From NCBI RefSeq assembly GCF_000332075.2, contig NZ_ALVU02000001.1, positions 806,001 to 870,000 of the forward strand: 64,000 nucleotides of DNA, written 5' to 3'. The DNA is from Synechocystis sp. PCC 7509. GTDB lineage: Bacteria > Cyanobacteriota > Cyanobacteriia > Cyanobacteriales > Chroococcidiopsidaceae. This document shows, piece by piece, positions 12,162-15,773 of the stretch. A program made the translations under genes and the position numbers. The number at the start of each line of letters is the position of its first letter. Position 1 is the first letter of the stretch. The notes below the pieces were generated by a model that was not told the DNA's origin, ran no database searches, and worked only from the letters and a program-made list of their open reading frames with translations.

Positions 12162-12258
12162 TAAATTTTTCTGTATACGGGTAGAGACTTCGGCAAAGTT
12201 TTAGAATAAAAATAGGAAAGCTAGTCCGATTAGGCATACATTGAGAAAAAAAAGCACC

Positions 12259-13461
12259 ATGCTGGATTTGTTACTGATTCTAGCGGTAGGTTTTTTTGGT
12301 AGCTTTGGGCATTGTGTGGGAATGTGCGGGCCATTGACGGCGGCGTTTTCTTTATCGCAAAAACAAGATACACCGCCAAAAATGCGATCGCTTTTTAGGT
12401 TTCATATTTTGCTCAATGCTGGCAGACTAATAAGTTATGCCTTAGTTGGCGCGGGTATTGGCGCTATAGGTTCGGTGATTTTGGCAAGCGGACAATTAGC
12501 TGGAAGCGGTAGCACTTTGCGTCAAACTATTGCTGTTACTACCGGAGTTTTGCTAATTTGGTTTGGCATTATTCAAATTAACCCCAAGTTTTTACCACCC
12601 ATTCCCTTGTTACACCCTCTAACTCAAGGAAACTGGCATCAGCGCCTAAGTAAAGCAATGGTACAGCTTTCTATGGGTAGCCAATGGTGGACACCAGCTA
12701 TTTTAGGATTCGTTTGGGGTTTAATGCCTTGTGGTTTTTTGTACGCCGCGCAAATTAAAGCCGCCGAAACTGGCAGTATTTGGCAAGGTGCGGCAACAAT
12801 GGCGGCTTTTGGCTTGGGAACTTTACCAACGATGTTAGGGGTAGGCATTTCTACTTCGTTAGTTAGCAAAGATCGGCGCGGTCAATTATTTAGGTTAGCG
12901 GGTTGGGTAACTATTACTGTTGGCGTATTAACTCTCCTACGGGCAATGGGAGAGGAAATGATGGTTTATTTTACAGGTCATGGGGCGCTACTGTGTTTGA
13001 TGTTAGCGCTTGTCAGTCGTCCGATTAGCCGCTTTTGGGCGCAACCATTGAAGTATCGCCGCGCTTTGGGGGTTGGTGCTTTTGTTCTAGCGATCGCTCA
13101 CATTACTAATACTATGCAGCATAACTATGGTTGGAATTTAAACGCGATCGCCTTTTTGCTGCCAAATCATCAAATTGCGATCGTTTTGGGGTTAATTGCG
13201 GTTCTATTGCTGGTTCCCGCAGTTTTTACTAGCAGAGATAAAATACAGAAAAGTTTAGGCACGTATTGGCGACAAATTCATTTACTAAGTATTCCCGCTT
13301 TGCTCCTTGCTGTAATTCATGCCGTACTTATTGGTACTCACTATTTAGGCGGAATTAATGATACGTGGATAAATCAGCTAATGGTAGTTAGTTTGGGGTT
13401 GATAACTTTGGGCGTATTGATATTACGTTGGCAAAATCCACTTAAAACGCGCGGTTTATGA
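12259..13461 (+). CDS. CcdA/UreH-like transporter fused to MsrQ/YedZ-like heme domain
   Basis: 400 residues from ATG 12259 (TTG 12241 would add 6). Residues 1-225 form a COG2836/DsbD_2 transmembrane module with the hallmark HCVGMCG (H18, C19, C23) and a second GLMPCG (C158), as in proteins for copper or thiol handling and metal export. Residues about 265-400 form a second four- to five-helix module resembling the ferric-reductase-like MsrQ/YedZ domain: RRALGVGAFVLAIAH, TYWRQIHLLSIPALLL and VIHAVLIGTH. Candidate heme ligands are H281, H341 and H354, spaced 60 and 13 residues apart. The stop overlaps the next gene by 4 nt (ATGA). The fusion suggests electron transfer linked to metal or thiol chemistry; that is inference. 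Confidence 0.7.
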   Translation: MLDLLLILAVGFFGSFGHCVGMCGPLTAAFSLSQKQDTPPKMRSLFRFHILLNAGRLISYALVGAGIGAIGSVILASGQLAGSGSTLRQTIAVTTGVLLIWFGIIQINPKFLPPIPLLHPLTQGNWHQRLSKAMVQLSMGSQWWTPAILGFVWGLMPCGFLYAAQIKAAETGSIWQGAATMAAFGLGTLPTMLGVGISTSLVSKDRRGQLFRLAGWVTITVGVLTLLRAMGEEMMVYFTGHGALLCLMLALVSRPISRFWAQPLKYRRALGVGAFVLAIAHITNTMQHNYGWNLNAIAFLLPNHQIAIVLGLIAVLLLVPAVFTSRDKIQKSLGTYWRQIHLLSIPALLLAVIHAVLIGTHYLGGINDTWINQLMVVSLGLITLGVLILRWQNPLKTRGL

Positions 13462-14207
13462 AAAGCTTTGGTTTGTTTCAAGAGTTTGTAGCTCGGAGAT
13501 CCCCCCCAACCCCCCTTAAAAAAGGGGGAGAAGATGGAAAGGTCACTATTAAAGCAGGGTGTTTAGAGCAATTTCAAGTTGTTACAACTTTTCTAGCATC
13601 TTTTGATAAAACAATGAGTTTTGGCGGGTTACTGCTAATTGAAACTTTAGTTACTACTCCCGCCAATGCTCACAAAATAGAAATTCACAAAGATGTCGGT
13701 GCAACTATCCATATTGAGCCAAATGATTCTCCCCGCGCAGGTGAAACGGCTTTAACTTGGTTTGCGCTTACTCAAAAAGGAGGGAAAATTATCTCTCTAA
13801 ATGAATGCAATTGTAAGTTGTCGGTTTACTCTCAATCTCGCAAAGAAGATACTTTACAACAGCCACCACTCAAACCTGTATCCCAAGAGCGCTATAGAGG
13901 CATTCCCGGCGCAGAAATTACCTTTCCGGCGGCGGGAGCTTATCAACTACAATTGCAAGGAAGCCCCAAAAACGGGGGGACATTTTCACCCTTTGAACTA
14001 AAATTTGATATTAATGTTGCACCGGGAATTGCTGCACCAAAAAGCAGAGATATTAAGGTGTCACCGGGAGTTGTCGTCCAAAAAAATACCGATCTCATTA
14101 TCAGCCAAACAACTCCGCCTTGGTTGACTCCAGCCATTGTTATCGGGACAATTTTAACAATTGCGATCGCTCTATTAGTTTGGCGCAAATTGCAACGCCA
14201 CGATTAG
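13458..14207 (+). CDS. Secreted, C-terminally anchored CopC-like protein
   Basis: 249 residues. The ATG overlaps the stop of the heme-fusion gene. A hydrophobic signal region (MSFGGLLLIETL) ends in PANA, so the mature protein would begin HKIEIHKD, with an N-terminal histidine as in copper-binding CopC-type proteins. A beta-rich domain (residues about 75-190) has a CxC pair (C117, C119) in LNECNCKL, then a linker and one C-terminal helix near 222-243. Residues about 12-25 read SPPTPLKKGG and are encoded by a dispersed DNA repeat, so the first 50 residues are anomalous; the true start may be Met53. Metal binding is inference. It is convergent with the His-rich protein and overlaps it by 4 nt. 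Confidence 0.6.
   Translation: MKSFGLFQEFVARRSPPTPLKKGGEDGKVTIKAGCLEQFQVVTTFLASFDKTMSFGGLLLIETLVTTPANAHKIEIHKDVGATIHIEPNDSPRAGETALTWFALTQKGGKIISLNECNCKLSVYSQSRKEDTLQQPPLKPVSQERYRGIPGAEITFPAAGAYQLQLQGSPKNGGTFSPFELKFDINVAPGIAAPKSRDIKVSPGVVVQKNTDLIISQTTPPWLTPAIVIGTILTIAIALLVWRKLQRHD
13493..13529. repeat. Dispersed C/G-rich cyanobacterial repeat, copy 1
   Basis: TCGGAGATCCCCCCCAACCC continues into a CCCTTAAAAAAGGGGG core. An inverted-orientation copy with few differences lies at 16230-16262. The element is common in cyanobacteria and here sits in frame inside the start of a coding region. Confidence 0.75.
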
Positions 14208-15340
14208 CTGTTTACTTTGGCGCGAGTTGTTAAGGCGATCGCTAATCCAACTATTACTGTACCTATCAAATAACTAAAACTAATTAATCTAGTTAATAAC
14301 GGTGTTGCAACGGGGGCTACTTCTATTTCTTCGGTAGCAACAACGGGTTTAAACTGACTGTTGGCATTGGGGATAACTTCTACTTCTAGCTGATGCGGTG
14401 CGCCATCAAAAAATTGTTGTTGCCATTTTAACTTGCCTGTACTATCGGGAATACCTTGATAAACAAAAGCTATCCAGTTATTTTCTAGTTGAGTAGTTTT
14501 GAGCTTAAAAGTTACATCTGTTACAGGCTGATTGGTTTTTGGATCGATCGCGCTAACTTGTAAATTAGCTAATTTCCCTACGGTGGCGTACTTGTCGCCG
14601 CTTATTTGGATTTTTAGCTCAGAATCATTAATAGCGTCGGTTTCTAAGGGCGCTGGGTGGGAATGGTGGTGAGATTTGGATACTTCGGCGCTGACATTCA
14701 CGACAACTAAACAAGCGATCGCTACTAACACCGCCCCACTTAACAATAATCGCACTTTCGCCGGGGCAATTTCTCCCCTTTGCGGTAAAGCTTGTTTGCC
14801 CATCACCCAACCGCCACCAATTCCCACCGCTAACAAAACTACAAGTAAAATCGCGTAATTGCGATACTTAACCGGATTTTCTGGCACATCTAAAGTTAAA
14901 GTTTGCTCAATGGGGCTAAATTGATTGGCAATCGGCGTAACATTTACCAATAACTTGTATTTGCCCCGAATTGGTAACATTTGCTGAAATTGTACTTTAC
15001 CTTGTGGGGCGATCGCATTTAATTCTAGTAATTTAGTACCTTCCACAACGGGAAAATCGGTAGCTAAAAACGGATTGCTTGGCGGTGTAAATATTTCAAT
15101 CTTAAATAAACTATTTGCCAACAATTCCCCGGCGGGATTTCGCGCAGTTAAGGTTAATAATGTCGGCGTTTGGGGCGTTGTAGCTTCGGCTTCAAAGGGG
15201 TAAAACTCTCCAACTTGTGGACTTGTAGTTAGCTCAATCCTAGGGATTGGTGTTTGAGATAAGCTAACAATTGCCACCAAAAACAGGCTCATCAAGCCTG
15301 TAACGGTGATGATGAGCGCCGAGCGCTGAAATTTTGACAT
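14204..15340 (-). CDS. Four-helix envelope protein with His-rich loop, riboswitch-controlled
   Basis: 378 residues from ATG 15340, 4 nt after the cbtB stop. Predicted helices lie at about 7-27, 161-180, 198-216 and 348-371, which places two beta-sandwich domains (about 30-158 and 230-345) and the loop HHHSH (224-228) on the periplasmic side. The second domain has a FDGAPHQLEVEV motif recalling YtkA-like folds. I know no named family. Because the gene follows cbtB and a cobalamin riboswitch, a role in cobalt capture or delivery is inferred. It could replace CbtA, the usual CbtB partner, which is absent here. Confidence 0.7.
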   Translation of the reverse strand: MSKFQRSALIITVTGLMSLFLVAIVSLSQTPIPRIELTTSPQVGEFYPFEAEATTPQTPTLLTLTARNPAGELLANSLFKIEIFTPPSNPFLATDFPVVEGTKLLELNAIAPQGKVQFQQMLPIRGKYKLLVNVTPIANQFSPIEQTLTLDVPENPVKYRNYAILLVVLLAVGIGGGWVMGKQALPQRGEIAPAKVRLLLSGAVLVAIACLVVVNVSAEVSKSHHHSHPAPLETDAINDSELKIQISGDKYATVGKLANLQVSAIDPKTNQPVTDVTFKLKTTQLENNWIAFVYQGIPDSTGKLKWQQQFFDGAPHQLEVEVIPNANSQFKPVVATEEIEVAPVATPLLTRLISFSYLIGTVIVGLAIALTTRAKVNS

Positions 15341-15344
15341 TTCT

Positions 15345-15539
15345 TTAATGACAGCTAATTGTCAAGGTGTGGTGGCGCAAGGAGTGCATCGAATCGTGGG
15401 CGGGGGGATAGGTAGAAAAATATACCGTCCACACACTTAAAGCGCATAGGGAAGTATAAAGGGTTAATTGTACGGGTAACGATAAAGTCCAATCAATTGC
15501 CCGATTTTGAACGAAACTAAGACTATTTGTAGCTCTCAC
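15345..15539 (-). CDS. cbtB: CbtB-type cobalt transporter subunit
   Basis: 64 residues from a GTG at 15539, set by an AGGA sequence 9 nt upstream. A longer frame to 15647 runs back through the riboswitch and is spurious. One transmembrane helix (about 25-43, YTSLCALSVWTVYF) is followed by the CbtB-like C-terminal His motif: THYPP-type turn YPPAHDSMHSLRHH, ending in SCH. CbtB normally works with the membrane protein CbtA in cobalt uptake. Here the next gene is a different membrane protein. The cobalamin riboswitch 35 nt upstream agrees with cobalt transport for B12 synthesis. Confidence 0.75.
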   Translation of the reverse strand: MRATNSLSFVQNRAIDWTLSLPVQLTLYTSLCALSVWTVYFSTYPPAHDSMHSLRHHTLTISCH

Positions 15540-15548
15540 AACCAGTGT

Positions 15549-15553
15549 TCCTC
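15549..15553 (-). promoter_or_regulatory. Ribosome binding site of cbtB
   Basis: GAGGA on the reverse strand, 9 nt before the GTG at 15539, decides the start of cbtB. It lies 21 nt beyond the riboswitch 3' end, so sequestration of this site is a possible control mechanism. Confidence 0.6.
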
Positions 15554-15573
15554 GCACATTAATGTAAGTTATT

Positions 15574-15692
15574 TGCGATCGCAGGCATTCTGACTTAAAG
15601 ACTTTAGATAGTCTCATCACAGTTGCGGAACAGCGTCGGAATTGCACCGAACTTTCCCTTCACCTCTAGTGATTTTCACCAAAAGCGATCGA
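15574..15692 (-). ncRNA. Cobalamin riboswitch
   Basis: On the reverse strand the order is AGGTGAAGGGAAAGTTCGGTG, then AATTCCGACGCTGTTCCGC, then AACTGTGATG, a variable stem, and the B12 box AAGTCAGAATGCCTGCG. This matches the conserved cobalamin riboswitch core. The flanks CGATCGC at the 5' end and GCGATCG at the 3' end can pair as P1. Binding of adenosylcobalamin would be expected to repress the cbtB operon directly downstream. The expression platform (terminator or RBS masking) is not clear. Confidence 0.88.
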
Positions 15693-15773
15693 ATAATTAT
15701 CTTATCACTAAGCGCGATCTCTAAAACTAAAGGTAGAATGTAATGCTAATTAGTCTTGAGGATAAGTAACAAT

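Follow-up and report, generated by a model that had tools for sequence, protein, structure and literature searches.

A candidate cobalt uptake system in cyanobacteria that pairs CbtB with an unnamed membrane protein

What does CbtB work with when its usual partner, CbtA, is missing? The question is raised by a two-gene operon on the minus strand of the window, a 64,000-nucleotide stretch of the Synechocystis sp. PCC 7509 genome, in which a cobalamin riboswitch is followed by cbtB and then by a gene for a 378-residue protein. We call this protein fam378, as it has neither a Pfam nor an NCBIfam model. The operon shares with CbtAB, the predicted B12-regulated cobalt transporter of proteobacteria, its CbtB subunit, its control by a B12 riboswitch and the leading position of cbtB, but CbtA (PF09490) is replaced by fam378, which the CbtA model does not detect. 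From the genomic context we predict, with confidence slightly better than even, a two-component system for cobalt uptake in the inner membrane of cyanobacteria, in which fam378 fills the place of CbtA.

The riboswitch aptamer (15563–15705, minus strand) is a full-length match to the covariance model RF00174, at 39.9 bits against a gathering score of 31.5 (E=1.3e-6), and contains the usual elements, the AAGTCAGAATGCC box and TTCCGCAACTG. The gap between the 3′ end of the aptamer and the start of cbtB is 24 nt, too short for a terminator hairpin; translational control is therefore likelier than termination, and the sequence suggests that the riboswitch probably acts on the translation of cbtB. 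This gene (15345–15539, minus strand, GTG start at 15539) has 64 codons and fam378 (14204–15340, minus strand) follows 4 nt later, so that both the riboswitch and the gene order given in the preliminary description were borne out. CbtB is assigned by an alignment of 29 homologues and by a match to the Pfam CbtB model (PF09489, E=2.7e-5) that scores 24.7 bits, slightly under the curated cut-off of 27. It has the single transmembrane helix and His-rich tail of the CbtAB subunit, the tail being of His/Cys type (HDxxHSLRHHTxxxSCH; C-terminal pattern HDSMHSLRHHTLTISCH), and H48, H52, R55, H56, C63 and H64 are invariant in the 29 cyanobacterial sequences (pattern HxxxHxxRH...CH). Convergent to fam378, on the plus strand, lies another gene pair (12241–14207). 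Its first gene encodes a fusion of a DsbD_2/UreH-like protein (GHCVGMCGP) with a ferric-reductase-like domain, its second a periplasmic protein without a name (AHKIEIHKDVGATIHIEP). The two genes neighbour fam378 in close relatives and at locus L040 only; at L060 the second one is present. The only other cobalamin riboswitch of the genome precedes a CbiX-like chelatase (L002, 478–1666), which bears a His-rich stretch, HGHHHHHHDHSH.

What kind of protein is fam378? Hydropathy and AlphaFold2 agree on four helices, and the order along the chain is helix, beta sandwich, helix, helix, beta sandwich, helix, in line with the four helices and two beta domains first described. Helix 1 spans residues 3–27 (15260–15334, minus strand, as for all parts of fam378), helix 2 residues 158–179 (14804–14869), helix 3 residues 194–222 (14675–14761) and helix 4 residues 348–377 (14210–14299). 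The first beta domain, placed by AlphaFold2 and conservation at residues 36–151 (14888–15235), carries the invariant residues D95-F-P, E100-G-T, P123, R125-G and Y128; the second, placed by the same evidence at residues 243–342 (14315–14614), carries invariant W306, F311 and H316 (FFDGAPH). The full-length model, built from five close sequences, is of moderate confidence (pLDDT 65), and the second sandwich modelled alone reached a pLDDT of 90. Both sandwiches and the HHHSH loop (residues 224–228, 14657–14671) would lie on the periplasmic side, since positively charged residues are found at either end of the protein and in the loop joining helices 2 and 3. The two halves of the protein are homologous by profile comparison (95% probability, E=2.4e-8, 163 columns), with column-shuffled controls (n=20) never exceeding 1.5% probability; this profile evidence makes fam378 a helix-Ig-helix unit duplicated within one protein.

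Profile searches place fam378 in no family of Pfam or NCBIfam, whose models gave only noise, with no match to HupE/UreJ (PF04955). Among the ORFs of the fetched loci it showed no link to PDGLE or NikK/NikL-like proteins. A PDB sequence search returned only weak transthyretin matches (E about 0.05), and Foldseek found generic Ig/macroglobulin sandwiches only, a macroglobulin domain being the best match of the second beta domain, so that the fold is uninformative on function. Across 58 homologues 23 positions never vary, among them D95, E100, R125, E154, K158, W306 and H316. Most conserved residues are periplasmic; the helices of these homologues hold no conserved His, Met or Asp as an obvious ion path. 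The HHHSH loop that had drawn attention to the protein is present but only loosely conserved, with at least one His in 55 of the 58 sequences, at least two in 39 of the 58 and some Met-rich variants, and the invariant His, H316, lies outside it.

A profile built from five relatives detected fam378 in 55 of 390 cyanobacterial genomes, representing 40 of 160 genera, and at each of the 59 distinct loci fam378 directly follows a cbtB on its own strand. At one of these (L058, 4116–4964) an insertion of about 600 nt splits cbtB into two halves that are still recognisable. The reverse search of the same 390 genomes, with 29 CbtB sequences as the query, found strong cbtB in 56 genomes; 55 have fam378 and the 56th (G341) has a truncated fam378 after cbtB and then DUF1636 and CobW, with the riboswitch kept. 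Second cbtB-fam378 copies in two genomes (G095 and G127) are decayed, the former with a riboswitch above the gathering score and the latter with a weak match only (loci L126, L127 and L125 cover the cases of G095, G127 and G341). The fam378 sequences are diverse (median pairwise identity 45%, minimum 28%), and by a mirror-tree comparison (r=0.76; permutation maximum 0.21) fam378 and CbtB co-evolve. As for CbtA, it is absent from the operon, as first noted, and also from the whole PCC 7509 genome; no CbtA scored over the cut-off in any of the 56 genomes with strong cbtB, which leaves no cbtA with a riboswitch of its own to work with this cbtB.

Of 55 loci from other genomes, 42 have a cobalamin riboswitch ahead of the pair, in 41 cases above the gathering score and in one with a weaker match; the distance is about 1 kb at L093. 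Beyond these 55 the riboswitch is found at the PCC 7509 locus, at L006–L008 and in G341. Homologues thus do not occur mainly without cbtB or riboswitch, and the expectation that they always follow both held for cbtB, whereas a riboswitch on every homologue had to be rejected, as 13 of the 55 loci have none at gathering score, one of them (L055) retaining a B12-box remnant. Four riboswitch-less loci of Nostocales (L062, L066, L067 and L072) have a divergent multicopper oxidase upstream, and several of these upstream regions contain a Fur-like palindrome, TTGCAAATnATTTGCAA.

Which metal, then, would the pair serve? At three riboswitch-less loci (L053, L057 and L090) its neighbour is a nitrile hydratase that carries the motif CTLCSC and whose genes run in the order beta-alpha. 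Cobalt-type enzymes are distinguished by CTLC in place of CSLC. The beta-alpha-activator gene order is likewise typical of cobalt nitrile hydratases (PMC7193024). No nitrile hydratase occurs within 5 kb of the riboswitch-bearing loci (Fisher p=0.011), and since L053 and L057 belong to the same genus the association amounts to about two independent events. In two genomes (G144 and G179) it is HupE that carries the B12 switch, and cbtB-fam378 lies beside the nitrile hydratase. CobW, a demonstrated supplier of Co(II) (PMC7689651), and DUF1636 are same-strand neighbours of the pair at 9 and 8 loci respectively, a total of 13 loci. At two further loci, both riboswitch-less (L061 and L072), the gene order is cbtB-fam378-CbiM-CbiQ-CbiO. 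These neighbours support cobalt as the likely cargo, as the preliminary description supposed, and make it very probable that cbtB-fam378 is part of cobalt supply; its constant company of CbtB and its repeated position beside cobalt-using genes suggest that fam378 is probably an unrecognised cobalt importer. Cobalt import by the pair is what we infer from this genomic context, and to that extent the proposal of a distinct uptake arrangement, with an unnamed partner in place of CbtA, is supported.

The pair is usually not the sole candidate in its genome and could assist another permease, as CbiM is encoded in 47 of 56 genomes with the pair and HupE in 32 of 55. Strict mutual exclusion of fam378 and HupE, which we considered, is unsupported (32/55 against 233/335, p=0.12). 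The main alternative to an importer is a periplasmic accessory that captures cobalt for a separate permease such as CbiMNQO, rather than a channel, on the model of NikK/NikL or CbiN serving ECF transporters; we regard it as a somewhat unlikely reading. Such a role would fit the periplasmic position of the conserved residues, which, with the lack of conserved ion-path residues in the helices, counts against an importer. It would also fit the loci where the pair lies directly upstream of CbiM-CbiQ-CbiO; with a third at which CbiM is about 3 kb away, three loci are near CbiM against 0.12 expected by chance. In PCC 7509, which has CbiD and so makes B12, a riboswitch-free CbiM-PDGLE-CbiQ-CbiO set could be the partner; this genome also has a weak NicO-type ORF and lacks HupE. 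However, CbiM lies within 5 kb of the pair at only 3 of 55 loci, so that co-encoding with CbiM/NikM, Q and O is not the rule and CbiM is not near at the other 52. Nine of the 56 genomes have no CbiM. Two of them, G025 (a finished genome) and G061 (94% complete), both B12-making (by CbiD in G025), carry the pair, in G025 with its riboswitch, and lack all the transporters searched for, namely HupE, CbiM, NicO-family proteins and CbtA. G025 argues for an autonomous pair, short of proof.

A second alternative is that the pair deals with a metal other than cobalt or with heavy-metal stress in general (Cu, Zn, Ni), the B12 switch reflecting only cross-talk. Some plasmid-borne copies (L171, L173 and L174) lie in heavy-metal islands with P-type ATPases, ArsR, NRAMP and multicopper oxidases, which counts against a cobalt-specific importer, and CbiM-PDGLE types can carry nickel, Ni and Co branches having been described (PMC2667541). 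B12 riboswitches, nitrile hydratase and CobW are, in contrast, cobalt-related contexts that recur across clades, and we find this reading improbable. In public plasmid records fam378 appears as a hypothetical protein, sometimes adjoining a "CbtB domain-containing protein". Import of cobalamin or corrinoids rather than Co2+ is more doubtful still, to the point of being very improbable: B12 riboswitches do govern genes for corrinoid uptake, for example in Anabaena (PMC10878165), but we set this reading aside because three riboswitch-less copies adjoin nitrile hydratase, a non-corrin cobalt enzyme, and a cargo of Co2+ would lead one to expect the loss of the switch there. In addition, we recognised no Btu gene among the neighbour clusters, and the His/Cys tail of CbtB is of a metal type.

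Under the favoured reading of the operon as a cobalt uptake system, plentiful (pseudo)cobalamin would lead the riboswitch to stop translation of cbtB and hence of fam378, and both proteins would be made when it is scarce. Co2+ would be collected in the periplasm by the His/Cys tail of CbtB together with the His-bearing loop and invariant residues of fam378, H316 for example, and would then pass through a membrane core formed by the helices of fam378 and CbtB, fam378 taking the role that CbtA has in CbtAB. Tentatively, and at somewhat less than even confidence, fam378 may represent a new class of metal permease that with CbtB makes up the whole Co2+ path, requiring no CbtA, HupE, ECF or NiCoT partner.

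Three more known systems resemble this arrangement in part. HupE/UreJ has six helices and, to our knowledge, no periplasmic Ig domains, and it is unrelated to fam378 by profile search; it shares with our operon the role of B12-riboswitch-controlled cobalt uptake in cyanobacteria (PMC4284471, PMC7689651). The ECF systems CbiMNQO and NikKMLQO also place small membrane proteins (CbiN, NikK/NikL) beside Co/Ni capture, and two fam378 loci adjoin CbiMQO, but fam378 usually occurs without M, Q and O, and in G025 and G061 without CbiM, HupE and NicO. NhlF/NiCoT of Rhodococcus is likewise a cobalt transporter beside a cobalt nitrile hydratase; it belongs to another protein family, and here CbtB-fam378 holds that position. 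Reviews list HupE and CbiMNQO as the cobalt systems of cyanobacteria (PMC4284471, PMC7689651), and a 2009 survey that distinguished types CbtA-G/X, then-predicted Cbt transporters, found none in 16 cyanobacteria (PMC2667541). Among open-licence papers we found none that names the fam378 family. The unnamed protein family is new; its setting, with CbtB in an operon for cobalt uptake under B12 control, is of a known kind.

A review describes the regulation of cobalt in cyanobacteria as unknown (PMC4284471). For the route by which many of these organisms obtain the cobalt for pseudocobalamin, the operon offers a specific candidate that can be put to the test. It is present in about a quarter of the cyanobacterial genera sampled, and its main protein still carries the annotation "hypothetical". 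CbtB, moreover, can occur without CbtA, and its own role thereby becomes accessible to experiment.
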